In this document: positions 3,019 through 48,015 of the stretch, in pieces
How the letters are laid out: each line of letters begins with the position of its first letter
Numbering within the stretch: position 1 is the stretch's first letter
NCBI GenBank assembly: GCA_950295325.1
Contig: OX485807.1
Span: 10,505,001 to 10,569,000 of the forward strand
Direction: 5' to 3'
DNA: 64,000 nucleotides
Source: Polytrichum commune
Lineage: Eukaryota > Streptophyta > Polytrichopsida > Polytrichales > Polytrichaceae
The notes under the pieces: generated by a model
Told to the model about the DNA's origin: nothing
The model's input: the letters and a program-made list of their open reading frames with translations, nothing else
Databases searched by the model: none
Position numbers and translations under genes: made by a program

Positions 3019-3050
3019 GGATCCGTGGCGCAATGGTAGCGCGTCTGACT
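3019..3050 (+). tRNA. tRNA-Trp(CCA), 5' half, split by a LINE
   Basis: These 32 bases form the acceptor 5' strand, D arm and 5' strand of the anticodon stem of a nuclear-type tRNA-Trp, stopping after the first two anticodon-loop bases. The A box (TGGCGCAATGG, 3026-3036) is intact. The remaining 40 nt lie at 11041-11080; joining the halves gives a 72-nt tRNA with a CCA anticodon. With about 8 kb of LINE between the halves, and the B box lost to the far side, the locus should not yield a normal tRNA. Confidence 0.93.
3035..3050 (+). repeat. 16-bp target-site duplication, left copy
   Basis: GGTAGCGCGTCTGACT is repeated exactly at 11025-11040 at the far end of the LINE. It runs from the D loop to the anticodon loop of the tRNA gene and gives the staggered-cut positions: one nick between tRNA nt 16 and 17, the other after nt 32. 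Confidence 0.95.
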
Positions 3051-3139
3051 TGGACACTCGGCTATGGAGCTCCGCGAAACCAGGAGAGATCTGGTTTTCT
3101 AGGAAACATGCTAGAATCCTGAATCCTTAACGCACTGAA

Positions 3140-5302
3140 ATGAATCTTGACTCGACGTTACTACGAGGAGATGCGCCTCCCCGTACTGAATCCAAGGACC
3201 CCCAATACGCTAGATTTGGACAACAGCAAGCATGGCGGGTGAAGTCCGTCGGAGAAGGTCGGGGCGGCTCTGGCAGAATCGAAGACAGCAACCCAGAGAA
3301 GCAGCAATACAATCCTTCGATTCACAATAGTAGTAGACCCTTCGCGCAGGTAGGAGAGCGATTCCCTCCCACGCCCGTAGCCAGGTCAACAGACTCGGCC
3401 AAGATGCAGTCTTCAGCGAACAACACTTTTCCACCCACCAACACGCATAGGGATACTGAAACCGCAGCACAGCTGCCTACAGCCGCCACCCGCAAGCTGG
3501 TGGCCACAATCCCCGCAGACCTCCTCGCATCTCTGCGTACAAGTTGCGAAAACAAAGCGTCAGTCTCGCTTCTCGGGCGAATTCAAGGTAAGCATCCCGG
3601 GCTCAAAACCTTAACGGCTTGGGCCCGGGAAACCCTTCACCCAACTCTTACTCTATTATCTTTAAAAGCTAACAATGTGTTTGAGGTCACCTTTGGTAGT
3701 CCGGAAGGCCGGACTCACGCTCTGAATCAAGCCGACCTCACCTGCGAGTCGGCATCCATCTTCTTTTCGAGCTGGAGGCCGCACTTCGATGCTAGGAAAT
3801 CACAAGATACCGACAGCCTCGACTACCCGGTGTGGGTGCAGATAGTAGATTTGTGTCAAGTCTTAAGGAATGAACCGTTCCTGCAGACCATTGGTGAGCA
3901 AATCGGTCAAGTAATCTCAATCGACAGCTCAGATGCATACAAGGCGAAAATGTTTGGTCCCCGCATTAGGTTGTTGGTGAGAGACCTACATACACTACCG
4001 CAAGCGGTTGTAGTCCCGCGCCTGGATGGTGACGGCATAGTTGAATACGCCCTTGAATTCAGTGGCTTACCACACCAATGTGGTCGGTGTCGCTCCCGCG
4101 ACCACCAAGTCCGACACTGTCTGAGAAAGGAGCAATACCGTAAAAGAGAGTCAAAACCCATCACAACCCAGCCGCAACTGCACAACCCCACAGCCACGAG
4201 TGCACCTACACGGACTCTCAGTAACATGATAGCTTCGGGCACAATAACCGGGTCACAAGCAGCGGACAAGGAGAAAGAGGAACAACGAATTCCTACCCAA
4301 CCCGAAGCGCCACGTGTGGCAACGCAGTCGCCCGCCCCAACCTCGCAGATGTCTTCGGAACAGCCACCCGAGCCTTCCCCCCGCCTTGCAGTTCCAGAAT
4401 TGCCCACCTTTGGAGCCGACCCCGATCTGCATACAAATGATCACAACTTCCCGAAGCTCCCGTCGTCAAAAAAGAAACCAGAAGGGGAGGGAGCAACCAG
4501 CCATTCACCGACCTGCACGTCGAGCTTGGATAGCCCGACTCCGACCCATTTTGTGTGGAGATCAAAACCTTTGATATTGCAACAGGAGGAACCCGAGGGT
4601 GGAGAGGAAGTAAAAGGCAAATCAGTTGCTAAAGCCCCAGACTCAACCCCTATAACGAGACAAGGGTACAGGACAGGACGACTTGCGGACGACTTCTGGA
4701 CAACTATGAACCCACCTAATACACCACTGTCCACACGCAAAACCCTACAGGTCATTCCTTTCCTCCTCACGGACCACAACAAGGAATCGGCAGAATATCT
4801 GGTAGATAACAGAACAGTCCCGCATCAACCACTCGCACATGTACACATAGCCGAATTGCTCGCGGGGATACCCTGGACTGAATCAAGAGCAAAACAACAT
4901 GTGGTTAATGAAGTGGCTCAAGCACTCCACAAAGTTTTAATCTTCACCAGCAAAGCACCAAACCCCCTACAGAGATGGAAACACGGACGTTGGTTTGCTA
5001 GTTGGGAAGGCGATTCGGGAGGAGAACATACCTGTACACTATACGTTAGCGTGCAAGTACAAGTGCCCAAAATAAAACCCCGGAAAGGCCAAAATTTCGG
5101 CTGGCGTAGGGTGCCACCCGAAATCTGGGACAGAATTAATCTCCACAATTCAGACAAGATCGAAGACAGCGAAGCAGAACGCACCCACTGGCAGAAGATG
5201 ATCGGAGCACCTCGCCGAAGCTTCAACAAACCCACCACCACAGCAGGTTCAACACAGAACCGGTATTCGGTGCTTACTGAGGAGGAAATCCTCACCCTCT
5301 AA
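3140..5302 (+). CDS. LINE ORF1: nucleic-acid-binding protein with CCHC zinc knuckle (720 aa)
   Basis: ORF1 proteins of plant L1-like elements package element RNA into a ribonucleoprotein. Residues about 1-110 are disordered and polar. Residues about 110-305 resemble the DUF4283 region of plant LINE ORF1 and retroelement proteins, including the PVWVQIVDLCQVLRNE stretch. A zinc knuckle follows at C314-x2-C317-x4-H322-x4-C327. Residues about 330-540 are Pro/Ser/Thr-rich linker. The last 170 residues form a further ordered-looking domain that I do not recognise, containing HGRWFASWEGDSGGEH. The start is the first ATG after the 89-bp leader. The stop (TAA) is 8 bp before the ORF2 ATG, in another frame, so ORF2 needs reinitiation or another unusual translation mechanism. 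Confidence 0.88.
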   Translation: MNLDSTLLRGDAPPRTESKDPQYARFGQQQAWRVKSVGEGRGGSGRIEDSNPEKQQYNPSIHNSSRPFAQVGERFPPTPVARSTDSAKMQSSANNTFPPTNTHRDTETAAQLPTAATRKLVATIPADLLASLRTSCENKASVSLLGRIQGKHPGLKTLTAWARETLHPTLTLLSLKANNVFEVTFGSPEGRTHALNQADLTCESASIFFSSWRPHFDARKSQDTDSLDYPVWVQIVDLCQVLRNEPFLQTIGEQIGQVISIDSSDAYKAKMFGPRIRLLVRDLHTLPQAVVVPRLDGDGIVEYALEFSGLPHQCGRCRSRDHQVRHCLRKEQYRKRESKPITTQPQLHNPTATSAPTRTLSNMIASGTITGSQAADKEKEEQRIPTQPEAPRVATQSPAPTSQMSSEQPPEPSPRLAVPELPTFGADPDLHTNDHNFPKLPSSKKKPEGEGATSHSPTCTSSLDSPTPTHFVWRSKPLILQQEEPEGGEEVKGKSVAKAPDSTPITRQGYRTGRLADDFWTTMNPPNTPLSTRKTLQVIPFLLTDHNKESAEYLVDNRTVPHQPLAHVHIAELLAGIPWTESRAKQHVVNEVAQALHKVLIFTSKAPNPLQRWKHGRWFASWEGDSGGEHTCTLYVSVQVQVPKIKPRKGQNFGWRRVPPEIWDRINLHNSDKIEDSEAERTHWQKMIGAPRRSFNKPTTTAGSTQNRYSVLTEEEILTL

Positions 5303-5310
5303 CACAAAGT

Positions 5311-8300
5311 ATGAATGGAGGCCCTATAACGATAGCGACCCAGAACACCAGGAGCTTGGGTCAAGGCTTCGCAGGGCGACGGAAGAGGAAGGAGATCAAA
5401 TCCTTCTTCAGACAGACCACCCCAACTACAGATATCCTCCTACTACAGGAGACAAAAATTCCCGAAGCAGTGTGCATCAAACAAGCCAGATTCATAGAAT
5501 TTAAAGGTGGCTCCAGCCTCTGGAACGAGAGTGCATTCTCAGCTCAAACAGGTAAATTCAAAGGTGGAACAGGTATTATACTAGCAGCAAGTGTGGCATC
5601 CATTGTCACTCATCACGGCATACTCTATCCCGGCAGAGCTCAATTCGTGATTCTCAATATTAGTCCCAGCCTTCAATTAGGTATTATGAATGTCTATGGC
5701 TTTAGCCATACGGGCGCAAGAGCAATGATGTGGCAGCATCTTGCACAAGCACCCCTACCGGAGGCAACTTGGGTCCTAGCCGGGGATTTCAACAACATCG
5801 AAAGTGTAGCGGACAAACAGGGCGGATCCACCAGGACGAGCATCAGCAACCGGGAATTGGAAGCATGGAATAAGTTGCTGCTAAGGCTCCGAGTGAAGGA
5901 CGCACACAACCTCGGGAACTTTCACAGGAAATCGGCGAAACTTTTCACGTGGACCAACTTCCACACTGACGACACAAGGATACAGACACGGATAGACCGC
6001 ATCTACATAGTGGAAACTCTGGAAAACATAGGGGGTGAGACAGAAATCCTCCCCACTATTCCAGATATTTCAGATCATGCTGGAGTCATCCTGCACACAC
6101 ATCGCACCACAAAGAGAAAACACCAACAACCCCCCTTTAATAAAGGGCTTCTATTGAATCCTGAGAGTAAAGCCGCACTTCTGCATACATGGAAGGCAGT
6201 TATGGATTCTAATCTCGAAACCTGGAACAAGAAGATGGTTGCGGCGAATCAAGCCATCCGAGCCAAATCGGAAGAATTGACTAAGGCACAGAAGAAGAAG
6301 TGGAAAGAGGCCTACCTCTCTCAATTCGAAGACATCAGTAAGGCTGAGGAGGAACTTCAACGTAACTGGAATTCGCAGGAAGCTCGCGACAAATTGAGTG
6401 ATGCCCAAGCTGTCCTGCACGAAGTAAGACAACAGAAATTTCAGTATCAAGAAAGCGCTATTCTTTCCAAATGGGCAAGAGTCGGGGATAGGTGCACAAA
6501 GGAATTCTTCGAATTCCATGAAGGGCACAGAAAACCGATCTCCATCTCACAATTGCGAGGAGAAGGAGACAGGCTCATCACCACACAAGCTGATCTGGAG
6601 ACCCACATTCTGACCTTTTACGAACAACTCTACACTCGTGATGACAACGTTGAAGTAGATGAGGCAGCTCGGGAGGAGTGCTTCAGAACACTACAACCGA
6701 CTGTAACTGAAGAACACAACCAAGAATTACTGCGGCCACTTACTTTGGAGGAAGTTACCACAGCAATGAAGCAACTCCCCGCAGGGAAGGCGCCAGGAGT
6801 AGACGCTATCCCGGCAGAATTTTACCAAGCCATGTGGGAAGACATTGATACTGACATCTTCAGTTTTGTTTCGGAGTCCATACAAGATGCACACATCGAG
6901 GCAGAATTGAATGTCAGCAAGATAGCCCTCCTCCCCAAATCCGAAGACCGCAGCAGAGTTCAGAATTTCAGACCTATCTCCTTGCTGAATACTCTTTACA
7001 AAATTGTGGCTAAAGTCTATGCGAACAGAATGAAACCACTCCTACACAATTGGATTCTACCCTCCCAAACCGGTTTTGTTCCAAACCGATGCATCCTCGA
7101 CAATATATTTCTTGCATTCGAGGCCATAGAGTGGACTCTAGAAAATAAACAGGAATTGAGCATGCTCTTACTTGATTTCGAAAAGGCGTACGACAGAGTG
7201 AATTGGACATTCCTGAAGCACACAATGGCACGCATGGGATTTCACGACACCTGGATTCAACAAGTGATGTCACTCAACCAGAATGCAGCTGCCGCAGTGA
7301 TCGTCAATGGGGAGCAATCCCGAACGTTCAACCTCCAGCGCTCTGTGCGTCAAGGATGCCCGCTGGCACCTTATCTCTTTCTCCTGACTGTAGATGTCTT
7401 AGGCCAAATGTTACAACATCCTCTTCACAGCGTCAAAGGCCTTCAACTACCAGATAAGTCAAGCATAACCAACCAGATGTTCGCCGATGATACTCTCCTT
7501 TTTCTTGATGGCACACCAGATAATCTCGACAGAGCCCTTACAGTGATTAACAAGTTCGGGGCGGCATCAGGAGCTAAGCTTAACCTTCATAAATCGGTGG
7601 GCCTTTGGCTGGCCCACCGAGAGAGGCCATGGACGTGGGGTGAAGAGGCAGGTTTGAAATGGCTACACACAGGTGAAGTAACGCGATACCTGGGCTATCC
7701 TTTCGGCCTGCAAATACCTCAAAAGGAAAAGGACGGTAAGATGCTTGGCCAAATACGAAAGCACTTACTCAAATGGTCGGCACACCCGTTATCGTTAGCA
7801 GGTCGTATCATGATCTCCAACCAGGTGATCCTCTCCTCCATCTGGTACCTCGCTTCCTGCACGGATTTCACAGGAAAAGCACTCAAAACTGCCAAGGCCA
7901 CAGTTAGAAACTACATATGGTTTGGAAAGAGAGAATCATGCGCGAGAGCCAAGGTGAAGTGGGACACTGCTGTCCTCCCAATTGTCCGTGGTGGGGTTAA
8001 AATCCTGGATCCACAATGGCAAGCATCGGCCTTATTGGTAAAACAACTGATTAGAGGCCTCTCTAGTGGATACGAACCATGGAAAATATTAGTCAGGTAC
8101 AGAGTCAGCCAAACACGGCAGTCTAGAAGAGGCAGGTGGCCGGCTCACCCAAATTGGATGATGAATGCTCGAAACCTCGTCAAACAAGGGTCTCCCTTGT
8201 GGCAAGGCATAATGAAAGCTTGGAATACAATTCAGTCTGGGCTAGAACAACAGGATCCGAGCAGTTGGGCAGAAATTATCCGACAGCCCCTGTTTGGCAA

Positions 8301-10818
8301 TAGGTTTCTCACAAATGACCTAGGCATCCAATGGGGCACTGACTCACGATCAACCATTCTAAGGTGGATGGAACGCGGGATGCGCTCCCTCAGGGATATG
8401 GCTACACCAGACGGCCGAGGCTGGCTGCCCTTCGCCCAAAACCCGAAACTGCACCACAACCGAATTACTGGAGCCCTCTACAACAACATCCTTCACAACA
8501 TTCCTTGGGACAATAACCCCCCTAACAACATCACACCGAGACAATGGGTGGCACCCAAGGAAGCAGATGGATCCATTCACCGAATACTCCACATTACTCG
8601 AGAGGACCCCTTGGAAGCTACTCTCTATCACAAAGACGCCACAGAAAGGATCAAACCAGCAGCACAACAGAACCTCTGCTTTGGAGAAGAACTAGGGGAA
8701 GTCAGAGTGGTTAGCTGCATTGGCGACAAAAGAACGATTCTCGAATTCAACCCAATCACTACAACTGAAGAACATTCACTCTGGCTGTGGGGAGGGGAGT
8801 GGATTAAACATCTAGAGTGGGATCCCAAGGATTGGCAGTGGCGGAGGATCGGGATACTTCCGGACACCAACATCTTGAACTACTCTACAAAACGAGGGTA
8901 CCGCACAACACTCAGACAAAATAATCACCAAATGAAAGTAGATGCAGAAATGGAAGCCGCAGGCTTTAACAGCAAATCAAGAGCAAAATTTTTTAACCGC
9001 ATTTGGCACCCCTACCTGCCAAGGAAGGTGTCAGCGATGCAGTGGTTAATCTTAACGGAAGGCTTGCCAGTCGGAGCATGGCGAGAGCGACTCGGAATGC
9101 CGAATCAATGCCAACTCTGCCCCTTGCATCTTCGCGAAACGCTTCAGCACGCATTTCAGGAGTGTTCGGAAATTGACCGTACCTGGGAGCTATTTCGAGC
9201 CGTTCGACAATCTGCTGGCCTTCCAGCTTCCTACATCACCTGGCAAGACATCAGCCGAGGACTGATGTCCGATCCAAACGGCCCCAGCATGGAAGAAGAT
9301 CTCCGCTGGGACACGGCAGCGGCGGTCACCGTAAATATGAACACACCATGGGACGTGCTAAGGGCGCAGTTACTCTGGTCCATTTGGTGCAGACGAGTGG
9401 AGGTGGCATTTCGAGATGACCAATTTCATTTGGGCGCTGTGCTCTGGCACGCCTGGCGCAATACGATTTATTGCGCAATGGAGGCATACAGGGAACTTTC
9501 TCGACACGCTCGAAATGAAGAAAAGAGACAGGAGCTCATCTCCTGTTTCCAACAAGTGTGGACGCACGCTAATATTTTTGGTCGACTCAGTAACGGCGAC
9601 ATCAAGTGGAACATCACGCCCCTGGCGACCTTTCTCCCAGTCGACCTCGGAGCATGGAATGCCGAACCAATCCTCATCCGACGCCTGTCCCAATCCCCCG
9701 ATCTAGAGGCCGAATTTACTGCCCGCCAGGACTTCGCCCAATTGGTAGAAGACTTCCTACAGGAGGCGGCCAACGAATGGCAACCGGCCGAGAATGACTC
9801 ACCCCCGCACCAGGCGCACGGCCCAGAACTCCCCGAACAAGAGGAGCCATCTTCCCCGATTGACGGCCCAGTCCCACGAACCGGCCTAGAGCCCCCAGCA
9901 AACGCCAATACACACACCACACAACAGAACACGGCCAACACTAACATCCCTCCCAGACGGCAGGTGCTGAGCGAACGGGATGGGCAGGGGACCGCAACAC
10001 TCCTCCCCTCGACCTCGCGCAGACGAGCCCCGGATAAGGAGAACCTCCCCCCCGCACCCCAGCACCCTCAAGCGCAAACAAAGAGCAGGCCTAAACGGAA
10101 GTGCCTTCGCAAATTTAACCACCCCTCACGGACCTTAATCCCTTGCGCTCGGAGGCACATCGAAGGGGAGACGTGTCAAAATAGCAGAAATCGTTCCTCT
10201 TCACCTCGGGAGACCGAGCAGCCGCGGCCTCGCGGAAGACTGGTGAGCCGGCCGAAAGTGAAATGCCTATTTGGCCCACGTGCCAAACAGAGACAGGGGG
10301 TTCGTACACGACACACCATCACTGATACGACAGACGCTGATAAGGATCTCCCCGAATCATCCCTCGGATTGCACCCGGAGCCGCCAGAGATACGGCCCTG
10401 CCTCGCAACTGAGCCTCCACCGACCCCCCCCACCAGACACTTCAATGTCGACCGAGTCACTTTTACGCACCCGCATCCAACCCGGCGAACGCCGTTTGAT
10501 CATTATTGGCCATCCTGCGCTCCGGCTCCGGCCCCGGATTCGTTCTTCTTCGCCCAACGACGGCTGGGTATCTCGGCAGAGGCCCTGGAAAACGCAATCT
10601 CACAGGAGATTGATGATCTCCTTCTAGAAATTGAGACCACCCGCAGGCGGGAACTTCTTGAACAACAGCCAGTCGAACGGCCCCTCTCCAGAGAGGACTG
10701 CCTTCGAATGTTTCAAAACGGAGAACTCCCTACTACGGGCGCCATGGCTGGTGTCTACCGTTGGGCGGCAAGCCTCGACCTCGAGGACGCTCCTACTCAG
10801 CTCAACGCAAGCGAATGA
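5311..10818 (+). CDS. LINE ORF2: APE endonuclease, reverse transcriptase, zinc finger and long C-terminal tail (1835 aa)
   Basis: This is the enzyme for target-primed reverse transcription. The endonuclease occupies about 5-260: N12 (TQNTRSL), E47 (LLQETKI), D159/N161 (GDFNN), D255/H256 (SDH). The reverse transcriptase occupies about 480-800, with FRPISLLNTLYKI, LLDFEKAYDRVNW, VRQGCPLAPYLF and the catalytic FADD at 724-727. A zf-RVT finger is at C1267-x2-C1270-x9-H1280-x4-C1285. The frame then runs about 550 residues further, of which roughly the last 360 are Pro/Arg/Gln-rich with basic clusters (RPKRKCLRKF, RPKVKCLFG) and a short acidic helical end. Plant L1 ORF2 proteins are typically near 1300 aa, so this tail is unusual. 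I see no RNase H motif. All catalytic motifs are present. Confidence 0.93.
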   Translation: MNGGPITIATQNTRSLGQGFAGRRKRKEIKSFFRQTTPTTDILLLQETKIPEAVCIKQARFIEFKGGSSLWNESAFSAQTGKFKGGTGIILAASVASIVTHHGILYPGRAQFVILNISPSLQLGIMNVYGFSHTGARAMMWQHLAQAPLPEATWVLAGDFNNIESVADKQGGSTRTSISNRELEAWNKLLLRLRVKDAHNLGNFHRKSAKLFTWTNFHTDDTRIQTRIDRIYIVETLENIGGETEILPTIPDISDHAGVILHTHRTTKRKHQQPPFNKGLLLNPESKAALLHTWKAVMDSNLETWNKKMVAANQAIRAKSEELTKAQKKKWKEAYLSQFEDISKAEEELQRNWNSQEARDKLSDAQAVLHEVRQQKFQYQESAILSKWARVGDRCTKEFFEFHEGHRKPISISQLRGEGDRLITTQADLETHILTFYEQLYTRDDNVEVDEAAREECFRTLQPTVTEEHNQELLRPLTLEEVTTAMKQLPAGKAPGVDAIPAEFYQAMWEDIDTDIFSFVSESIQDAHIEAELNVSKIALLPKSEDRSRVQNFRPISLLNTLYKIVAKVYANRMKPLLHNWILPSQTGFVPNRCILDNIFLAFEAIEWTLENKQELSMLLLDFEKAYDRVNWTFLKHTMARMGFHDTWIQQVMSLNQNAAAAVIVNGEQSRTFNLQRSVRQGCPLAPYLFLLTVDVLGQMLQHPLHSVKGLQLPDKSSITNQMFADDTLLFLDGTPDNLDRALTVINKFGAASGAKLNLHKSVGLWLAHRERPWTWGEEAGLKWLHTGEVTRYLGYPFGLQIPQKEKDGKMLGQIRKHLLKWSAHPLSLAGRIMISNQVILSSIWYLASCTDFTGKALKTAKATVRNYIWFGKRESCARAKVKWDTAVLPIVRGGVKILDPQWQASALLVKQLIRGLSSGYEPWKILVRYRVSQTRQSRRGRWPAHPNWMMNARNLVKQGSPLWQGIMKAWNTIQSGLEQQDPSSWAEIIRQPLFGNRFLTNDLGIQWGTDSRSTILRWMERGMRSLRDMATPDGRGWLPFAQNPKLHHNRITGALYNNILHNIPWDNNPPNNITPRQWVAPKEADGSIHRILHITREDPLEATLYHKDATERIKPAAQQNLCFGEELGEVRVVSCIGDKRTILEFNPITTTEEHSLWLWGGEWIKHLEWDPKDWQWRRIGILPDTNILNYSTKRGYRTTLRQNNHQMKVDAEMEAAGFNSKSRAKFFNRIWHPYLPRKVSAMQWLILTEGLPVGAWRERLGMPNQCQLCPLHLRETLQHAFQECSEIDRTWELFRAVRQSAGLPASYITWQDISRGLMSDPNGPSMEEDLRWDTAAAVTVNMNTPWDVLRAQLLWSIWCRRVEVAFRDDQFHLGAVLWHAWRNTIYCAMEAYRELSRHARNEEKRQELISCFQQVWTHANIFGRLSNGDIKWNITPLATFLPVDLGAWNAEPILIRRLSQSPDLEAEFTARQDFAQLVEDFLQEAANEWQPAENDSPPHQAHGPELPEQEEPSSPIDGPVPRTGLEPPANANTHTTQQNTANTNIPPRRQVLSERDGQGTATLLPSTSRRRAPDKENLPPAPQHPQAQTKSRPKRKCLRKFNHPSRTLIPCARRHIEGETCQNSRNRSSSPRETEQPRPRGRLVSRPKVKCLFGPRAKQRQGVRTRHTITDTTDADKDLPESSLGLHPEPPEIRPCLATEPPPTPPTRHFNVDRVTFTHPHPTRRTPFDHYWPSCAPAPAPDSFFFAQRRLGISAEALENAISQEIDDLLLEIETTRRRELLEQQPVERPLSREDCLRMFQNGELPTTGAMAGVYRWAASLDLEDAPTQLNASE

Positions 10819-11024
10819 GTCGCCTCTGCGTGTGGCATCGCCCTCCCCGGGCCTCCCACGGGGGCCCTCCCCTGTCCCTCGTTGTGTACACCTGGCATGC
10901 TGGCCTTTTCTCCCGCCCGTTCTTTGCGGGTTTGTTTTGTGCTTTGGGGTTTTTACCCCCCCCCCCCCCTCTTTTGGGGCTTGTACTCGGTTTTTTCATT
11001 TAATTACCTCGGTGAGGTTTTCAC
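10819..11024 (+). other. LINE 3' untranslated end without poly(A)
   Basis: This stretch contains a run of 14 C (10956-10969), a T-rich patch, and a short hairpin ACCTC-GGT-GAGGT near the terminus. It ends TTTTCAC directly at the target duplication. Lack of a poly(A) or simple-repeat tail implies that the reverse transcriptase recognises 3' RNA structure, as in several site-specific LINEs; that part is inference. Confidence 0.6.
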
Positions 11025-11040
11025 GGTAGCGCGTCTGACT
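11025..11040 (+). repeat. 16-bp target-site duplication, right copy
   Basis: Exact repeat of 3035-3050, contiguous with the 3' half of the tRNA-Trp gene. Confidence 0.95.
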
Positions 11041-11080
11041 CCAGATCAGAAGGTTGCGTGTTCGATTCACGTCGGGTTCA
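11041..11080 (+). tRNA. tRNA-Trp(CCA), 3' half
   Basis: The sequence begins with the CCA anticodon and contains the 3' anticodon stem (TCAGA, pairing with TCTGA), variable loop, T arm with the B box GTTCGATTC, and the acceptor 3' strand ending in the discriminator base A. Together with the left half it completes a canonical cloverleaf. The B box without its A box is not expected to initiate normal tRNA transcription. Confidence 0.93.
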
Positions 11081-26389: not shown

Positions 26390-26561
26390 GCCTTGTCAAA
26401 GGGGCACACAAGTTTTAAGGTCCAAAAGCAAAATATTTAAAATATTTCACTTCATGAAATTCGGGGACACTTAGTCCTAAAACCTGTTTGTATGACTACT
26501 ATGTCATTGCGATTGTAATGATTGTGTTGTCAGAATGACACATAATCATCATTGGGGGAAG

Positions 26562-27376
26562 GGCTTTGGGTCGACTAACCCAAACCTTGTTGAGGTAGAA
26601 TGGGGTCAGAGTCATCCTCTGTACGTCCTCACTGTGGTAAAGGGTTTGGGTCGACCGACCCAAACCTTGTGGGGCAGGATGGGGTCAGTGTCATCCTTAA
26701 AACCTGCCCACTGCAGGAAAGGGTTTGGGTCGAATGATCCAAACCCTCTTGGACAAGATGGGGTCAGTGTCATCCTTAATACTTGCCCACTGCGGAAAAG
26801 GGTTTGGGTCGACCGACCCAAACCTTCTTGGGCAAGATGGGGTTAATGTCATCATGAAGACCTACCCATTGTGGGAAAGGGTTTGGGTCAACCGACCCAA
26901 ACCTTGTAAGGCATGATGGGGTCAGAGTCAGGCTCCACACCTACCCCATGTGGGGAAGGGTTTGGGTCGACCGACCCAAACCTTGTAGGGCAGGATGGGG
27001 TCGGAGTGAGGCTCAACACCTGTACCATGTGGGGAAAGGTTTGAGTCGACCGACCCAAACCATGTAGGGCATGATGGGGTCAGACTCATCCTCAATACAT
27101 GCCCCCTGTAGGGAAGGGTTTGGGTCGACCGACCCAAACCTTGTAGGGCAGGATGGGATCAGAATCACGCTCAACATCTGCCCCATGTGGGAAAGGGTTT
27201 GGGTCAACCGACCCAAACCTTGTTGGACATGATGAGGTCAGAGTCATCCCTAATACCTACTCATTGTGGGGAAGGGTTTGGGTCGACCAACCCAAATCTT
27301 GTAGGGCAAGATGGGGTCATACTCATACTCAATACTTGTCCATTGTGGGAAAGAGTTTGGGTCGTCCGACCCAAAT
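26562..27376. repeat. 79-bp tandem array with a palindrome in each unit, about 10.3 copies
   Basis: Units begin near 26562, 26641, 26719, 26798, 26877, 26957, 27036, 27115, 27194, 27274 and a partial 27353. Each opens with a near-perfect palindrome (TTTGGGTCGACCGACCCAAA) followed by GATGGGGTCAGAGTCAT-type sequence. Several deviations in the palindrome are paired or arm-specific. The array lies just upstream of the transposase 5' end, where transposase-binding or promoter repeats would be expected. Confidence 0.9.
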
Positions 27377-27929
27377 TATTTGTAAAATCCGCCGTCTAAT
27401 GCGGCAGGAACATGGCATCTTCTAAATATAAGCTCAGCGGGGAAATTAAACTCGTGAATGGATGTTGTGATTGCTTGCTCATGAATGCTAGCGTGCACTA
27501 ACCTTGTAATAGAGCTCCAAGTGAGAAAGCTTGCTTTAATTTTAGGAGTGGGAGATGAGCAAAAACGACCAACTTTTGGGGGGGTTGACCCTTTATACTG
27601 TCCGCCTCCGCTCCCTCTACTTCCTCTTTGGATACCTTTCATGCTTGTTTCCCCTTTAACCATTAGTTCAAACCTTCTGACATAATTTCCCGCTTCATGT
27701 TTATAATAGAAAATGTGTACTAAGCCTGGCTCTTTGATGCCCCAACCATCAAATGACTTGAGTTGACATATATTGTGTGTGTAGAATAAATATATGTTGT
27801 CACTATTTGAGATATTGTATCCGTTTATTATTATTTTAAGTGAATATGACATGCACCATTGGGAGAAGGATAGCAACCACATGTATTTCCCCCCCCCCCC
27901 CCCCCCTTCCTTTGGGTTATGTTTGGTTT

Positions 27930-28760: not shown

Positions 28761-29590
28761 CCAATGGATGTGTGGTGTTAGCATGCTATTCATTTTACAT
28801 GCCATACTAGTATATTTTATTTGCAATAATATGAGTGTCATATGATTTCCCCTTCAATATGATCTAATGTTTGGATTGCCCTACCTAAACCATCTTGATG
28901 TAAGCTCTTATTTGGGTTCTTGATATGAACACCCCCTTCATCATATTTGCATCTTCCAACATTCTCTAATATATGTGTGATTTTCTCCATGTTCTATTGT
29001 TTGTAAATGTCTCAAAATGCCCAAAAAGTCCCAAATTAACGAATATAGTGTTAGATAGGATTTTGGCCAATGGATGAACTCATCCATGACAATATTTGTT
29101 CAGTTATTCATAAGAAATGTCATCCGAAAAGTTGCCATAGTGACATCAAATACCATATGACACTAAATATCATATTTAGTGTACATCTTACCGTACGGTT
29201 GGCAGTCGCCATATCGTATTCCCAATGCCCACCCACCTACTGCATTGCTCTCGAGTAGTCATCTCTGGCTCATTTCTAGAATGAAAAAGTATGGACTGCT
29301 CCATACCTTAAAACCGCTTCCATAAAGGCATCCCAATTGCAAGAATAACTGTAAAGCCTGGTTTGATATTGCATGCAATCTTGAATATGGTCATGTTGAA
29401 TGACATCATCCAACATCACTGATCCGAATCCACCAAAGCAGAAAGTACGACCAGCTCTTAAATAAGGTCCTCAGTGGCAGGGGTGAGTAGTGAAAGCGGT
29501 TTTTTGTTGAAACCGAAGCTGCTGACAAAGTTTCCAGACATTGAAGTACTGAAACATGCCATTACATTCCTCTATTATAAGATTACACCT

Positions 29591-30007
29591 AAATTCATCA
29601 ACAAAAATGATCAGCGCTCTTCATCACTTTCCACAGGCTGATAACAAACACACCCTCATCGTGACAAGGAAGACTATCACAAGTTATGTCACAAGCTATG
29701 GTTTGGTTATCCCTAACAAGTAGTTTGACATTAAGGAGAATCCTCCCGGGTATAGCACAGAAGATTGTTCCATATTTATCGAGAAGCTCATTGTGGGCCA
29801 AGCATGCCCATTATGACATACTTGCACTGTAGACATTAAAAAGTTTGACTTTATACATAATACTATGCAACTATGCAGCTTCCCTTGAGGTTTCGGAGGA
29901 TAAAGGTTGCGGACCCTGCAAACAGAGTGAGTACAATTAACTCCCACTCTGCTAGTTCGCAACAAATCATCACTCCCCTTGCGCCACAACCTCCGTCTTG
30001 CAATTCC
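29591..30007 (+). promoter_or_regulatory. 417-bp upstream block of NmrA-like gene A, identical to copy B
   Basis: Every base matches 44528-44944, although sequence on both sides differs between copies. It ends 47 bp before the chosen start codon, so it covers the likely promoter and 5' leader. A TATA-like TTATACATAA lies at 29851-29860, about 195 bp before the ATG. Identity could reflect gene conversion or strong constraint. Confidence 0.6.
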
Positions 30008-30054
30008 ATGCAAATTGTAGGTGTATGCATCCGGCCACTAATACATACATTTCC

Positions 30055-31032
30055 ATGGCACACGTGGGAGGCGCTGGACCGCAGTTAATCCAAGGGAAGG
30101 ATATGGTGGGGAGTAGCTGTAAGCCAATTCTAGTGACGGGGGCTGGTGGAGGCGTGGGTTCTGTAGGAACAAAAGTTGTTGAACTCTTAATAGAGAGAGG
30201 ATTCCCAGTGCGCGCCCAAGTAAGAAGGCTAGATGACAGATCCGAGGCGTTGAGCAAGCTAGGTCATGTTGAGCTTGTTGTGGCAGACTTCACCAGCCTT
30301 GATGACACACATAGAGCTGTAAAGGGATGCAGCCGCATTCTCTTTTGCATGTCAGTCGCAGGGGACTATTTGGAGGCGTCCCTCAACATGGTAGCCGTTG
30401 CAAAACACCATGGAGTGGAGGTTTTTGTCAATCTCTCGCAAATGTCGTTGTCGTCAATGAGCATCACGGCCTCGTCAAAAAGCAAGCAGCAACGGCATCA
30501 CTGGCTGGTGGATCAGGCACTCGAGTGGTCAGGGTTGCCAACCGTTCAATTGAGACCTACGATATTCCTCGAGCACCCGTTCTTCAATGTGATGGCCGCA
30601 AAGTCCATTGTGAATTCGGGAGAAATTCGATTGCCTTTCAAACGAGGTAAAGTGCCACCGGTTGCAGCTGATGATGTTGCACGTGTGGCGTTTGAGGTTA
30701 TCACCAATCCCGAGGGCCACCTGGGCAGAGTGTACAATATTTATGGGCCGGTATCCGAGGATATGGACGCTGTTGCCCGAGAGTACTCCAAGGCACTTGG
30801 GCGTGAGGTCAAGTATGTTGACCTACCGTTGGAGGAGTGGGAGCAGACAGAGTTGCTTAGAGAGTGGCATTTCTCAGATCACCTGAAGAACCACTTTGTG
30901 ACCCTCGCAACCCTAGCTGCCCAGGGGGAGCTGGACCAAAAGAGTGATGACTTCGAGCATGTCACAGGGTTGAAAGCAATGACAATTGCGGCATGGGTGC
31001 GACAAAACAAGCTTTTTGATCAGACTCTGTGA
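30055..31032 (+). CDS. NmrA-like NAD(P)-binding protein, paralogue A (325 aa)
   Basis: An atypical short-chain dehydrogenase of the NmrA/HSCARG type: a Rossmann domain binding NAD(P), acting as a redox sensor or reductase. ILVTGAGGGVGSVG near residue 25 is the GxxGxxG dinucleotide loop. VRAQVRRLDD follows the second strand and ELVVADFTSLDD carries the acidic turn. LRPTIFLEHPFFNVM and GRVYNIYGPVS belong to the C-terminal substrate half. There is no intron. The chosen ATG has a good plant context (CCATGGC); an upstream in-frame ATG at 30025 would add 10 residues. Length is close to the usual 290-330 aa. It differs from paralogue B at 23 residues by hand count. The intronless bacterial-like architecture leaves open an old horizontal origin. 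Substrate unknown. Confidence 0.82.
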   Translation: MAHVGGAGPQLIQGKDMVGSSCKPILVTGAGGGVGSVGTKVVELLIERGFPVRAQVRRLDDRSEALSKLGHVELVVADFTSLDDTHRAVKGCSRILFCMSVAGDYLEASLNMVAVAKHHGVEVFVNLSQMSLSSMSITASSKSKQQRHHWLVDQALEWSGLPTVQLRPTIFLEHPFFNVMAAKSIVNSGEIRLPFKRGKVPPVAADDVARVAFEVITNPEGHLGRVYNIYGPVSEDMDAVAREYSKALGREVKYVDLPLEEWEQTELLREWHFSDHLKNHFVTLATLAAQGELDQKSDDFEHVTGLKAMTIAAWVRQNKLFDQTL

Positions 31033-32085
31033 AGTGAAAGTGATAGCACTGTCTGTATGGTAGAAGGGAAGGCACTTAAATCGACGTATCAAGATAATAT
31101 CGCTTATGAGAATAAGCACTAGTGATTCCTCACCCCTGCTCCAATATTAAGCCTCGTAGCTTATCTACTTGTACGATAATGCTTTGTGTAAGTACAGTTT
31201 TCAATTCCAACCCTTTCAGAGTGCCTTGGAGCTCAGGATATTGCTTTGAGAAATGACACTGTATCTCATCAATATCAAATAGAAGAACAGCTTCACAACA
31301 TTCCTTTAGTGTATGTAATTTTATCAAGCTGCTTGCGACTGTGTCGTTCCATTTACTTAATCAGTTCCTAAACATGTGTCTAAACTCATTGAGATGTATA
31401 TTTATGAAAATATGACGAATTTGTGGGCATCAACTATAGACGCTTCAATACTATTACTACATATTGATTGTCGATTTTGATGGACTCTATAAACTTTTCT
31501 TTTACTTCACAGAAGCAATGCACAGCATCTTTTGAATAAAAAGGTAGGAAATGTCCTTGAAGGCTTTAGAATTTTTGAGCCATAGTACAAATGATGTGGA
31601 ATAATTTCAAAATGGCTGTGAGGGCTCCCCCATTCAAGCCCATGAGAAAAGCTCGTACAAACAAGATGGAGGATGGACAGACAAAAAATGCAGAGGCACG
31701 TGTTGGGGAGCATCGTGGAAACTTTGAAGTCACATTAGACCGTCTTACTCATGATGAATGAACACATGACCATCACTCTGGACAGAGAAGGTTCATACAT
31801 CCTGCTCAGTACTATGCTCTAACTCCACTTACTAGTAGAGAAAATGTTGTTCATTAGGAATGTCCACTGCATCTCAAATGATGCGAGTGGAGGATTTAAG
31901 GCAAGCTTGCAAATCTCACTTTATAAATGATCTTCAAAATACATGAAACCTGAGGGATATCAAGAGTCAAGGGTCGAGGAAGCATTTAGCAGTGAAAGCA
32001 TCTTATTTCATACACTAGGAAATTATTGGTGCTGGGTGGCATACCATCTCCTCTAGATCTCGATGAAAGCTTCAATCAAAATACT

Positions 32086-32646
32086 TCATTTCAATTCCTT
32101 CGTGTAGTACCACTGTGAACTGTTCACATAGTGGTCAGTACTGTCAAAGAGCATTTCACTGTCTGAGAGGTTGTGAATGACATCAGTACCCTTTGGGTCC
32201 ATATTTGCACTTGGCAGTAGTTCTTCATAACCTCGTCCAGATTAAATGAAGCCTGGTTGGAGAGTTTCTGCTGTGCAGGAAGCAATGTACATTCTTGAAG
32301 ATTGTGGTGGCCATTTTGATCTCTTCGCTCCACCTCAGACATTAATTGCTGCTGAACCAATGATGTAGAGAGACATGTTCCAATGCTCAAGCTTGGAGGT
32401 ATACTAGGTTCACCATTAGTCCAATCCACTGCAGAGTCAGGTGTCCTTCGTAGTGATTTGTTGCTGCTGAGAGGATAATTTCCAGCTACTTGAGGGTCAG
32501 AATGAAGCTCACGGTGCAATGAGGATGGCAGTCCTTGAACACGGTGATATTGATGCCGAATAAAGGATAAAAAAATTTATCGCCTTCAATATTATGTAGC
32601 TCCCCTAGTGCATTCCAGATCTTATTGGTGAAGCGCTCTCCAAGGA
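32086..32646 (-). pseudogene. Truncated copy of the AP2-like gene
   Basis: Homologous to 48016-48616, the 3' half of the AP2-like gene in copy B: SNKSLRRTPDSAVDWTNGEP and HHNLQECTLLPAQQKLSNQ read through clearly. The AP2 domain and 5' exon are absent because the duplication ends within the gene. Frames change near 32500 and in the C-terminal region, where a segment duplicated in B (DVIDNLF) is missing. It cannot encode a DNA-binding factor. Confidence 0.8.
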
Positions 32647-42594: not shown

Positions 42595-44527
42595 AACTTC
42601 CTCATGCATCCCATCATCCAAATCTAAAAAGAACAAGGTTTATGATGATATTACTTATGAAGATATCAAGCCATATATAAGTCATGACAAGTTTGACTAC
42701 ATGAGAAGAGATTATTTCCTCTAGGAGTCAATTATAATGAATTATGTTAGTGGGATCTCTTGACTCCTTGTATTTTATTTTATGTTGCTATAAATTGATC
42801 TAGCCTTGTCATAGCCCAAATGTACCTGCATCAAGAAGATCAAGAAATACTTAGAAAATATTTCAATTGAAATCTAGGGAAAGAGGTCATGGCATTGGAG
42901 AAAACCAAGTGGATTATGGATAGTATCTTTATTTTTATTGGCATATGTTCAACAAATGGGGGGGGGGGGGAATCTCAAAATGAAAGTAGGTAACAAACAA
43001 CCATCTAAGGGGTTGATCCCATACAAAGACTCTTCTCATGCCAAAGGAGGGTTAATGACCATGTTTGAGCAATCCAATTGCTGACAGATCAAATGGCATC
43101 AAAGAATATATTTGTCGCAATCATCATGCTAAGCAACCTATGGTAGCCTGAAGGACAGTACAATATGGAACATGTGACATAATGGACATCAGTGGGTCCA
43201 ATGCAATGAAGATCTACAAACAAAGGCTATTGGCAAAGGCTTTGTTCTCAATGGATGCCCATTGCCTACGAAGAATAGGGAGAGGCAAGGAGGGGACTAT
43301 TAAGGACATCTATAATAAATCACATGTATATCCGCACTGCCACCACCAACATCGGGCATCAACATGGACAATGAATTTGATAATCATATGAGCCAATGAG
43401 TTGTCATCTTGGTCTCTTTTTTTGCGTCCCTTTGAACTTAAAAGTTGACAAGTTGATTAATTTAAGATCCAAAATTAGGTGTTCATGTCATATCATTTAG
43501 TAGTCATTCTAACCCTCCAAACAAGTACAAACTAAAAATATCTAATTGAATCAAACCAAAATTGGTTGCCATTAAAAGAACGTGCTATTCAAGAAAATGA
43601 GGGTGAGGTGGAGCTTGCCCTACGTCCACCTAGTGCCACCTTGCACTCACACACACATTGTTCATCACCAAAGTCTTACCACCCAGAAAGATGGGGCAAT
43701 AGGGTTCCACCCTAACCCAAAATCTCAACCATCAGATCCATCAAAACTTGACCATGGATAGCAAAACAACTACCCTAAATATGATATTTAGCATCACCAA
43801 TTCTAATTGCCTTGCTCAATACTAATTCTAAACCACGGTGTAGTGTCACCAACACTAATGTCAACCCAACATTATTTGTCATTCCTTGTTAAAAAAAAAT
43901 TAGGGAATTATAGATTTATAGTGTTGCATTAGTGTCACTTTCCAAGTGATTTTTCATCCAAAATTCAATCATCCATGACAATATTTCATCACAAGTTGTT
44001 GACATGAGAAGATAGGGTTTTGGCCAATGGATGAACTCGTCCATCATCCATGAAAATATTTGTTCACTTATTCATAGGAGGTGTCAGCCGAAAAGTTGCC
44101 ATAGTGACTTGAAATACCATATCATCCTAAATATCATATTTAGTGTACATCTTACGGTGGGCAGTCACCACCCACCTACTGCATTGCTCTCGAGTAGTCA
44201 TCTCTGGCTCATTTCTAGAATGAAAAAGTATGGGCTGCTCCATACCTTAAAACCGCTTCCATAAAGGCATCCCAATTGCAAGAATAACTGTAAAGCCTAG
44301 TTTGATATTGCATGCAATCTTGAATCTGTTGATGTTGAATGACATCATCCAACATCACTGATCCGAATCCACCAAAGAGAAAGTAATACCAACCCTAAAA
44401 TAAGGTCCTCAGTGGCAGGGGTGAGTAGTGAAAGTGGCTTTTTGTTGAAACGAAGTTGCTGACAAAGTTTCCAGACATTGAAGTACTGAAATATGCCCCT
44501 ACATTCCTCTGTTATAAGATAATACCC

Positions 44528-44944
44528 AAATTCATCAACAAAAATGATCAGCGCTCTTCATCACTTTCCACAGGCTGATAACAAACACACCCTCATCGTG
44601 ACAAGGAAGACTATCACAAGTTATGTCACAAGCTATGGTTTGGTTATCCCTAACAAGTAGTTTGACATTAAGGAGAATCCTCCCGGGTATAGCACAGAAG
44701 ATTGTTCCATATTTATCGAGAAGCTCATTGTGGGCCAAGCATGCCCATTATGACATACTTGCACTGTAGACATTAAAAAGTTTGACTTTATACATAATAC
44801 TATGCAACTATGCAGCTTCCCTTGAGGTTTCGGAGGATAAAGGTTGCGGACCCTGCAAACAGAGTGAGTACAATTAACTCCCACTCTGCTAGTTCGCAAC
44901 AAATCATCACTCCCCTTGCGCCACAACCTCCGTCTTGCAATTCC
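44528..44944 (+). promoter_or_regulatory. 417-bp upstream block of NmrA-like gene B, identical to copy A
   Basis: Matches 29591-30007 at every base. The neighbouring bases differ on both sides: ACCCAAATTC versus ACCTAAATTC to the left, and a substitution plus an indel to the right. The TATA-like TTATACATAA lies at about 44788-44797. Confidence 0.6.
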
Positions 44945-44990
44945 GTGCAAATTTAGGTGTATGCATCCGGCCACTAATACATACATTTCC

Positions 44991-45968
44991 ATGGCACACG
45001 TGGGAGGAGCTGGACCGCAGTTAATTCAAGGGAAGGATATGGTGGGGAGTAGTCATAAGCCAATTCTAGTGACGGGGGCTGGTGGAGGCACAGGTTCTGT
45101 AGGAAGGAAAGTTGTTGAACTCTTAATAGAGAGAGGATTCCCAGTGCGCGCCCAAGTAAGAAGGCTAGATGACAGATCCGAGGCGTTGAGCAAGCTAGGT
45201 CATGTTGAGCTTGTTGTGGCAGACTTCACCAGCCTTGACGACACACATAGAGCTGTAAAGGGATGCGGCCGCATTTTCTTTTGCATGTCAGTCGCAGGGG
45301 ACTATTTGGAGGCGTCCCTCAACATGGCAGCCGTTGCAAAACACCATGGCGTGGAGGTTTTTGTCAATCTCTCACAAATGTCGGTGTCGTCAATGAGCAT
45401 CACGGCCTCATCGACAAGCAAGCAGCAACGGTATCACTGGCTGGTGGAGCAGGCACTCGAGTGGTCAGGTTTGCCAACCGTTCAATTGAGACCTACGATA
45501 TTCCTCGAGCACCCGTTCTTCAATGTGATGGCCGCAAAGTCCATTGTGGATTCGGGAGAAATTCGATTGCCTTTCAAACGAGGTAAAGTGTCACCGGTTG
45601 CAGCTGATGATGTTGCACATGTGGGGGTCGAGGTTATCACCAATCCCGAGAGCCACCTGGGCAGAGTGTACAATATTTGTGGGCCGGTATCCGAGGATAT
45701 GGACGCTGTTGCCCGAGAGTACTCCAAGGCACTTGGGCGTGAGGTCAAGTATGTTGACCTACCGTTTGAGGAGTGGGAGCAGACAGAGTTGCTTAGAGAG
45801 TGGCATTTCTCAGATCACCTGAAGAACCACTTTGTGACCCTCGCAACCCTAGCTGCCCAGGGGAAGATGGACCGCAAGAGTGATGACTTCGAGCATGTCA
45901 CAGGTGTGAAGGCAATGACAATTGAGGCATGGGTGCGACAAAACAAGCTTTTTGATCAGACTCTGTGA
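44991..45968 (+). CDS. NmrA-like NAD(P)-binding protein, paralogue B (325 aa)
   Basis: Same architecture and length as paralogue A, with a canonical dinucleotide loop ILVTGAGGGTGSVGRKVV; A has VGSVGTKVV. By hand count the coding regions differ at 39 of 978 bases, with 23 amino-acid changes and about 10 silent ones, spread along the protein. There are no stops or indels, so both copies could be functional. The start is the ATG in CCATGGC, aligned with that of A; frames upstream of the next in-frame ATG (44961) are broken by an indel between the copies, which supports a start no earlier than that. Intronless. The reaction is unknown; the family includes redox sensors and quinone or azo reductases. 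Confidence 0.82.
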   Translation: MAHVGGAGPQLIQGKDMVGSSHKPILVTGAGGGTGSVGRKVVELLIERGFPVRAQVRRLDDRSEALSKLGHVELVVADFTSLDDTHRAVKGCGRIFFCMSVAGDYLEASLNMAAVAKHHGVEVFVNLSQMSVSSMSITASSTSKQQRYHWLVEQALEWSGLPTVQLRPTIFLEHPFFNVMAAKSIVDSGEIRLPFKRGKVSPVAADDVAHVGVEVITNPESHLGRVYNICGPVSEDMDAVAREYSKALGREVKYVDLPFEEWEQTELLREWHFSDHLKNHFVTLATLAAQGKMDRKSDDFEHVTGVKAMTIEAWVRQNKLFDQTL

Positions 45969-46208
45969 AGTGAAAGTGATAGCACTGTCTGTATGGTAGA
46001 AGGGAAGGCACTTAAATCGACGTATCAAGATAATATCACTTATGAGAATAAGCACTAGTGATTCCTCACCCCTGCTCCAATATTAAGCCTCGTAGCTATG
46101 CTATGTGTAAGTACAGCTTTCAATTCCAACCCTTTCAGAGTGCCTTGGAGCTCAGCATATTGCTTTAAGAAATGACACTGTATCTCATCAATGTCAAATA
46201 GAAGAAAC

Positions 46209-46523
46209 TGTTGAAATTGTGATGACATGGCCCAAGTCCAGCTGGGCACAAGTCCAACTGGGCACATTAAAGGTATGGAAAATACTGCTTGAGTATTTAG
46301 ATTTGGAATCAGTCTGTTAAGAAGAAATGATTAATCTGTTACAGCCCTAGTTTGTTGCAGCCCATGCTTGACTAGTACAGCTAATGTTCTTAAAGGCATG
46401 AAGCTCAAACGCTTCTCTTGTACTCTCATTGATTATGTAATCAAAATACTAAGTGTCTCTGCAGTTGAAACATCGCGTATACAAGGCATCTGAGTTTTTT
46501 GTCTTCCTCTTATATCTCCAACA
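46209..46523. mobile_element. Solo LTR (315 bp), Copia-like
   Basis: TGTTGAAATTGTG...ATATCTCCAACA, with perfect TGTTG/CAACA termini and the 5-bp duplication GAAAC at 46204-46208 and 46524-46528. Copy A has the uninterrupted sequence (AGAAGAACAGCTTC, about 31280), so the element entered B after the segmental duplication and then lost its internal region. Small size and termini fit Copia LTRs. Confidence 0.88.
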
Positions 46524-47308
46524 GAAACAGCTTCACAACATTCTTTTAGTGTACGTAATTTTATCAAGCTGCTTGTGACTGGGTAGTTCCATTTACTTAA
46601 TCAATTTCTAAACATGTGTCTAAACTCATTGAGATGTATATTTATGAAAATATGACGAATTTGTGGGCATGAACTATACACGCTTCAATACTATTACTAC
46701 ATATTGATTGTTGATTTTGATGAACTCTATAAACTCTTCTTTTACTTCACGTAAGCAATGCACAGCATCTTTTGAATTAAAAGGTTGGAAATGTCCTTGA
46801 AGGCTTTAGATTTTTGAGGCCATAGTACAAATGATGTGGAATAATTTCAAAATGGCTGTGAGGTTTCCCCCATTCAATCCCATGAGAAAAGCTCGTACAA
46901 ACAAGATGGAGGATGGACAGACAAAAAATGCAAAGGCATGTGTTGGGGAACATTGTGAAAATTTTGAGTTCACAGTAGACCGTCTTACTCATGATGAATG
47001 AACACATGACCATCACTCTGGACAGAGAAGGTTCATACATCCTGCTCAGTACTATTCTCTAACTCCACTTACTGGTATAGCAAATGTTGTTTATTAGGAA
47101 TGTCCACTGCATCTCAAATGATGCAAGTGGAGGATTTAAGGCAAGCTTGCAAATCTCACTTTATAACTGATCTTCAAAATACATGAAACCTGAGGGATAT
47201 CAAGGGTTAAGGGTCAAGGAAGCATTTAGCAGTGAGAGCATCTTATTGCATGCACTAGGAAATTATCGGTTCTGGGTGGCATACCATCTCTTCTAGATCT
47301 CGATGAAT

Positions 47309-47998
47309 GCACCCACCCCCCCAATTTTGTAAAACCTCTTCTTTTTGAGAGGCCAACTATAATCAGCTATGGATTGCCATAGGTATTGGGGTGAGTAGAC
47401 AGACCATTGGGAAGCTGTGATAGAACTTTCTCCTCTGCACCTGTATTCAATCTTGACAGCGAAAACATCAACAATCTCTTCTCATATGGGTTCCTTGACC
47501 GGTGTCACTTAATATATGAAATGTACAAGGTCAAATGCGATCATTCCTAATAAAAATTAAAAATCAATACTTCCTTGTCATGGAGAGCCACTTCGATTCA
47601 TTCACAAAATAGGTGTACATTGGACTTTAACATTGTGCAGCACACGTACATCATCCATGTGAATAACAAACCCTCAATGCCCATGTGAGCCCAAGAAGAT
47701 CATGAATGACACAAGAAAATAATTGATGTGTCATTTTATAAATACTGGAAATACACATATAGAAATTAAAGTATCAATGTCTCCACCACAACCTACTATA
47801 CTCACATCTGAACACTTTGCAATACAAGTCCCCAACTCCTTACCAGTTTCAAAATCATATGCACTAACAACATAGCTAGCCTAACAACATAGCTAAACAA
47901 AAAGTGATCACATCCATTAGGTGTCCGTCCTACCTACTTACAAAGCATATAAGAGATAGGGGCAGACTCAGCTACCTGAACTAAAACACTTGAAAAAA
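47309..47998. other. Block of about 690 bp present only in copy B
   Basis: Copy A jumps directly from CTCGATGA to AAGCTTCAATC where B has this block. I see no target duplication or inverted ends, and a short AAGC homology at the junction, so deletion in A is at least as likely as insertion in B. No gene seen. It lies just 3' of the AP2-like gene. Confidence 0.55.
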
Positions 47999-48015
47999 GC
48001 TTCAATCAAAATACT

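Follow-up and report, generated by a model that had tools for sequence, protein, structure and literature searches.

A plant L1-type LINE splits a tRNA-Trp gene and very probably belongs to a family that inserts preferentially inside tRNA genes

In Polytrichum commune, a tRNA-Trp gene is divided by a complete LINE, which raises the question of whether the element fell into this gene once or belongs to a family that chooses such genes. We analysed the 64,000-nt stretch of DNA carrying the locus (hereafter the window) and searched the 407.8-Mb genome from which it comes. The evidence makes it very probable that the element is one of a family of L1/APE-type LINEs of a moss-like plant that inserts preferentially inside tRNA genes.

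The divided gene and its LINE

The locus is composed of the following features, all on the forward strand:

3019..3050, +, tRNA-Trp(CCA) gene, 5' part, nt 1-32, comprising acceptor strand, box A and D arm as far as U33
3035..3050, +, target-site duplication, 5' copy, 16 bp, GGTAGCGCGTCTGACT
3051..11024, +, complete LINE, 7974 bp
3051..3139, +, 5' untranslated region, 89 nt
3140..5302, +, ORF1, 720 aa, with a DUF4283 domain and a CCHC knuckle identified by eye
5311..10818, +, ORF2, 1835 aa: APE-type endonuclease, reverse transcriptase, zf-RVT and a long C-terminal tail
5311..6105, +, endonuclease domain, APE/L1-EN-like predicted fold
6943..7698, +, reverse transcriptase domain, RVT_1
8971..9186, +, zf-RVT domain
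10819..11024, +, 3' untranslated region, no poly(A)
11006..11024, +, conserved 3' tail, ACCTCGGTGAGGTTTTCAC, 19 nt (74 genome matches including the window copy)
11025..11040, +, target-site duplication, 3' copy, 16 bp, GGTAGCGCGTCTGACT
11041..11080, +, tRNA-Trp gene, 3' part, from the anticodon CCA to nt 72, with the B box

When the two flanks are joined and one copy of the duplication is retained, ARAGORN recognises a 72-nt tRNA-Trp(cca); on the window as it stands, Rfam and ARAGORN report nothing, because the gene is split by the LINE. With up to three mismatches allowed, the duplicated sequence occurs at only two sites in the window (3035-3050 and 11025-11040), against a mean of 0.13 occurrences in shuffled controls, none of which (0/100) reached two. 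It corresponds to nt 17-32 of the tRNA, from the GG of the D-loop, directly after box A, to U33, before the anticodon. Hence the original prediction, that a perfect 16-bp duplication flanks an element in a split tRNA-Trp gene with nicks between nt 16 and 17 on one strand and after nt 32 on the other, is confirmed. It had also described the nick site as different from the T-rich/A site of L1 and the element as devoid of poly(A), and both descriptions hold: the bottom-strand nick implied by the junctions is GCTACC/ATTGCG, which is not T-rich, and the element has no poly(A) tail, since the longest A run in its last 61 nt is 2. No second copy was found in the remainder of the 64,000-nt window, and the predicted folds of the untranslated regions barely beat shuffles (z of -1.13 for the 3' UTR and -0.61 for the 5' UTR). 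At least eight intact tRNA-Trp genes were detected elsewhere in the source genome by ARAGORN, the interrupted gene being one of nine seen.

The element had been proposed to be a complete LINE, and its two reading frames indeed run over their full length with no internal stop. Judged from its sequence and modelled fold, the ORF2 endonuclease is of the APE type: its catalytic residues are unchanged across 24 sequences and the top Foldseek matches of the predicted fold are L1-EN, in a comparison whose Z does not separate L1-EN from other APE enzymes. The order endonuclease, reverse transcriptase, zf-RVT, together with DUF4283 in ORF1, is a plant L1-like arrangement. An APE endonuclease followed by a reverse transcriptase in ORF2 is the mark of L1/APE-type LINEs, and target-site duplications of 16-20 bp and 5'-truncated copies (L024, L026, L027 and L048) are found in this family, as in LINEs. 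Ordinary L1 elements end in a poly(A) tail and use a T-rich/A nick site. The window element has neither, and is therefore L1-type by its enzyme and no ordinary L1.

Insertions across the source genome

A query with window positions 10750-11060 retrieved six other element 3' ends from the source genome, namely the two tRNA-Pro insertions and the copies L025, L026, L027 and L028 described below. Searching for the 19-nt tail at up to two mismatches gave 74 matches, against 2 for the reversed tail; these are not all separate insertions, one flank being common to L050, L051 and L052 and another to L087 and L090. All 74 flanks were read. A clear tRNA gene, defined by a BLAST E of 1e-7 or less to a tRNA library, adjoins 15 tails (Gly-GCC 7, Lys-CTT 3, Pro 2, Trp 1, Glu 1, Val 1), with L097 (E 0.001) and L073 (E 0.005) left out of the count. 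An exact B box is present in 17/74 flanks, 11 within the tRNA copies and 6 beyond them, and in 0/74 at each of three downstream control offsets; at one mismatch the count is 29/74, against 0, 2 and 0 at the control offsets. When these flanks are read on the opposite strand, exact B boxes are absent (0/74) and one-mismatch B boxes occur in 14/74 because the T-arm is nearly self-complementary.

If the family were strictly site-specific, most copies would lie at the target; here 15/74 do, or 21/74 when flanks with an exact B box are added, and the other 53 tails have neither. The family therefore has a strong preference for tRNA genes, not strict specificity. The proposed tabulation of the flanks of other copies, carried out here at their 3' ends in the source genome, thus gave a divided answer, with the 15 tRNA genes on one side and these 53 tails on the other, and copies at unrelated sites, which had been named in advance as counting against site specificity, were found to that extent. 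At three tRNA-Lys 3' junctions (L059, L066 and L078), one or two bases depart from the tRNA and are maybe untemplated. Six tails (L067, L069, L070, L072, L033 and L037) adjoin repeated tRNA-like or SINE-like sequence with B-box-like words, and such repeats are a possible second target class.

Both junctions were read at five tRNA insertions, in genes for tRNA-Trp, Pro-AGG, Pro-TGG, Val and Gly, the 5' junction thus being known in 5/15 tRNA copies; the other six Gly copies and the three Lys and one Glu insertions are known by their 3' ends alone. In 5/5 of these sites the joined flanks restore a tRNA, and the duplications measure 16-20 bp. The Pro-AGG copy is near full length (8650-bp insert, 20-bp duplication), the Pro-TGG copy is 5'-truncated (2260 bp) with a 16-bp duplication that ends directly before the anticodon, and the Val-CAC copy, an 8134-bp insert with matches to ORF1 and ORF2, has a 16-bp duplication that begins at the GG of the D-loop and runs to C32. 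The Gly-GCC copy, L048 (C2:13229455), is a 5'-truncated insert of 90 bp with an 18-bp duplication, in a tRNA-Gly gene in which ARAGORN places, at position 38, an intron of 11 nt. The 3' end of the element meets the D-loop just before the GG that follows box A in 4/5 copies, the exception being the tRNA-Gly copy, where the junction comes after nt 24. The 5' junction lies in the anticodon loop, except in tRNA-Gly, where it falls in the intron at nt 38. The position of the bottom-strand nick hence varies among lineages, with Gly at nt 24 and Lys and Glu different again. For the Glu copy, no duplication was found within the 9.6 kb examined, the start of which still lies inside ORF1; for one Lys copy, 9.6 kb contained an intact tRNA-Lys gene and no clear junction; and eight other tRNA copies showed no 5' junction within the 0.6-1.5 kb examined upstream. 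The tRNA-Gly(GCC) genes at L048, L038, L041, L045, L047, L060 and L082 seem to have variable introns after the anticodon.

Four further copies lie at sites that are not clear tRNA genes. Three of them, L025 (9613 bp), L026 (83 bp, junction AAT|GGTA) and L028, lie outside tRNA sequence; the duplication is a clean 17 bp in L025 and L026 and approximate in L028. L027 has an 18-bp duplication at a tRNA-like site with no ARAGORN call (junction AGT|GGTA). The 5' ends of L025 (C5) and L028 (C1) start with GTGGTATCATAGTACCCT or ATGGTATCATAGTACCCT, which resemble the stretch of tRNA-Gly from the D-loop to U33 (GTGGTAGAATAGTACCCT in L048); this start is perhaps a remnant of target DNA that the element brought with it from a previous home in tRNA-Gly.

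As copies lie inside several different tRNA genes, the target is tRNA genes generally, not that of Trp alone, and the targeting is leaky. What stands of the proposed tRNA-Trp specificity is that other copies start and end inside tRNA genes; what falls is Trp as the sole target, since Pro, Val and Gly genes, and by their 3' ends Lys and Glu genes, are also hit.

Relatives, target choice and rival explanations

Homologs of both proteins were found: 34 for ORF2 at 57-79% identity, among 58 matches, and 107 for ORF1. In the reverse transcriptase tree, 35 close rows form one clade (100/98), which two angiosperm rows join (99/96), but via long branches. The nearest named rows, again across long branches, are the plant L1 elements P0038 (Sesamum) and P0044 (Cannabis); the window element differs from plant L1 in lacking poly(A) and in its tRNA targeting. 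One ORF1 homolog from outside the source genome, P0268, bears on the insertion site. Its frame extends 212 aa above the core, the runner-up reaching 157 aa, among the 93 of 107 homologs in which the core could be located. The upstream reading, AVLAQLVERKALNL, agrees exactly with the translation of nt 1-42 of the source genome's tRNA-Lys(CTT) gene (14/14 codons), placing the 5' junction in the anticodon arm (tRNA match to nt 42), not at the exact nucleotide of the window. In the ORF1 tree P0268 and the window element fall in one supported 34-row clade (97/87), in separate subclades, and the likeness of their 5' UTRs is not significant (50/1000 shuffles, best of three frames). At the other end, P0023 reads 153 codons beyond the last conserved motif, a stretch with no recognisable tRNA 3' half. 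Scoring back-translated peptides for tRNA compatibility was dropped as too permissive (181/1,009,683 tests) and replaced by the genome's own tRNA-Lys gene. No relatives were detected among viral contigs, a search for the tRNA-Lys pattern included, among prokaryote genome contigs and plasmids, or in a phage collection searched with a short peptide.

On balance we lean towards a moss LINE clade, comprising these 34 ORF2 and 107 ORF1 homologs, that is at home inside tRNA genes. Its L1-type endonuclease would have acquired recognition of the D arm and anticodon arm, and its lineages would have radiated by switching between tRNA isoacceptors, in parallel to the unrelated Dada transposons. In the insertion reaction, probably target-primed reverse transcription, the ORF2 endonuclease would open the bottom strand where the DNA of box A and the D arm supplies a motif resembling A(A/G)T|(A/G)GTA. 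The freed end would then prime reverse transcription of an RNA whose short tail is conserved and lacks poly(A), and cleavage of the top strand would follow in the anticodon arm, 16-20 nt further downstream. Each insertion would destroy one member of a multicopy tRNA gene set, and lineages would have settled on differing tRNAs. The conserved 3' tail is probably the feature recognised by the reverse transcriptase.

The alternative that survives best, which we regard as a real though lesser possibility, is that the endonuclease merely reads a short motif of about A(A/G)T|(A/G)GTA, so that motif-rich tRNA genes and tRNA-derived SINEs are hit without any targeting of tRNA genes or Pol III. RGTA indeed stands at 32/74 junctions, against a background of 0.64% of flanking positions, and the motif recurs at the non-tRNA or uncalled sites L026 and L027. 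However, at that background frequency RGTA alone appears too common to explain 15/74 insertions at tRNA genes, and this reading would therefore need a longer, box-A-like motif. Less likely still is targeting through protein contact with the Pol III machinery at box A or B, as in the TRE5 element of Dictyostelium, whose ORF1 contacts TFIIIB (PMC5911963). The enrichment of B-box places, including tRNA-like sequences outside clear genes, agrees with such contact, but the insertions read at both ends lie at fixed points within the gene and not at a distance; PMC3706591 contrasts at-a-distance and inside-gene insertion as two modes. It is very improbable that the terminal tRNA sequence belongs to the element, as a tRNA-derived promoter or tail, and not to the target DNA: tRNA sequence does touch both ends of the element, and a tRNA-Gly-like stretch begins L025 and L028, but the tRNA that is split differs from copy to copy, every such site has its duplication, and whole tRNA genes are restored in 5/5 cases when the flanks are joined. 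That an ordinary plant L1 landed once in a tRNA gene by chance, which the window copy by itself could not exclude, is next to inconceivable, since the family has other tRNA insertions in the source genome and P0268 adds a case outside it.

Comparison with known systems

NeSL-clade LINEs have a restriction-like endonuclease and no APE domain; the window element has an APE domain and so falls outside that clade. They occur in planaria and in Trichomonas, the presumed host of NeSL-1_TV, whereas the window element is a plant, L1-like one with an APE-type endonuclease. Another LINE considered here, Dewa, is presumably of the Tx1L group. Like the window element, the NeSL-clade LINEs are non-LTR elements directed at tRNA genes, NeSL-1_TV being specific for tRNA-Pro, LIN15_SM for tRNA-Arg and LIN25_SM for tRNA-Glu (PMC4640811). 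The original statement that known site-specific LINEs target rRNA, snRNA, spliced-leader or tRNA-flanking DNA was accordingly too narrow. The L1-clade elements TRE5, TRE3 and NLTR-A/B of Dictyostelium are also aimed at tRNA genes, but land 2-150 bp outside the tRNA sequence, and TRE5-A and TRE3-A end in oligo(A), in contrast to the window element with no poly(A) (PMC5911963). The present family inserts inside the gene, in 5/5 tRNA insertions read at both ends. Dewa is a sequence-specific LINE tied to tRNA-Leu repeats, of which it targets the spacer and not the gene (PMC3706591). Dada DNA transposons also insert inside tRNA genes, near the A box and the anticodon and with the tRNA differing by family, but use a DDE transposase, make 6-7 bp duplications and involve no reverse transcription (PMC3706591 and PMC8869645). 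Among LINE targets, PMC5035012 also names tRNA genes.

LINEs specific for tRNA genes are thus already published for the NeSL clade; a plant or L1-type one seems undescribed, none having been found in the titles and abstracts of a partially covered literature, in which a search with the tRNA letters gave no match. If true, targeting of the interior of tRNA genes would add plant L1-type elements beside NeSL-clade LINEs and Dada, and would represent a convergent solution for life in multicopy genes. The acquisition of specificity by L1-type enzymes could be tested on an APE endonuclease that makes a staggered cut of 16-20 bp in DNA repeated across the genome, and such an enzyme is possibly a lead for targeted insertion; the family also raises the question of how the host tolerates the loss of tRNA genes (1/9 tRNA-Trp loci seen).

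Several other features were observed in the window. The product of a gene at 30055-31029 shares 65% identity with a protein of Ceratodon purpureus, as would fit a moss host, and 95% with one encoded on another contig. Positions 29080-32523 and 44044-48493 form a segmental duplication with two NmrA-like genes, its repeat blocks being mostly 90-98% alike, and 26515-27446 is a tandem array whose period is 79 bp, with a 300-nt overlapping register present in about 9 copies. Finally, 57346-58143, on the reverse strand, holds a DDE_Tnp_4 transposase-like gene, which we take to be of the PIF/Harbinger type.
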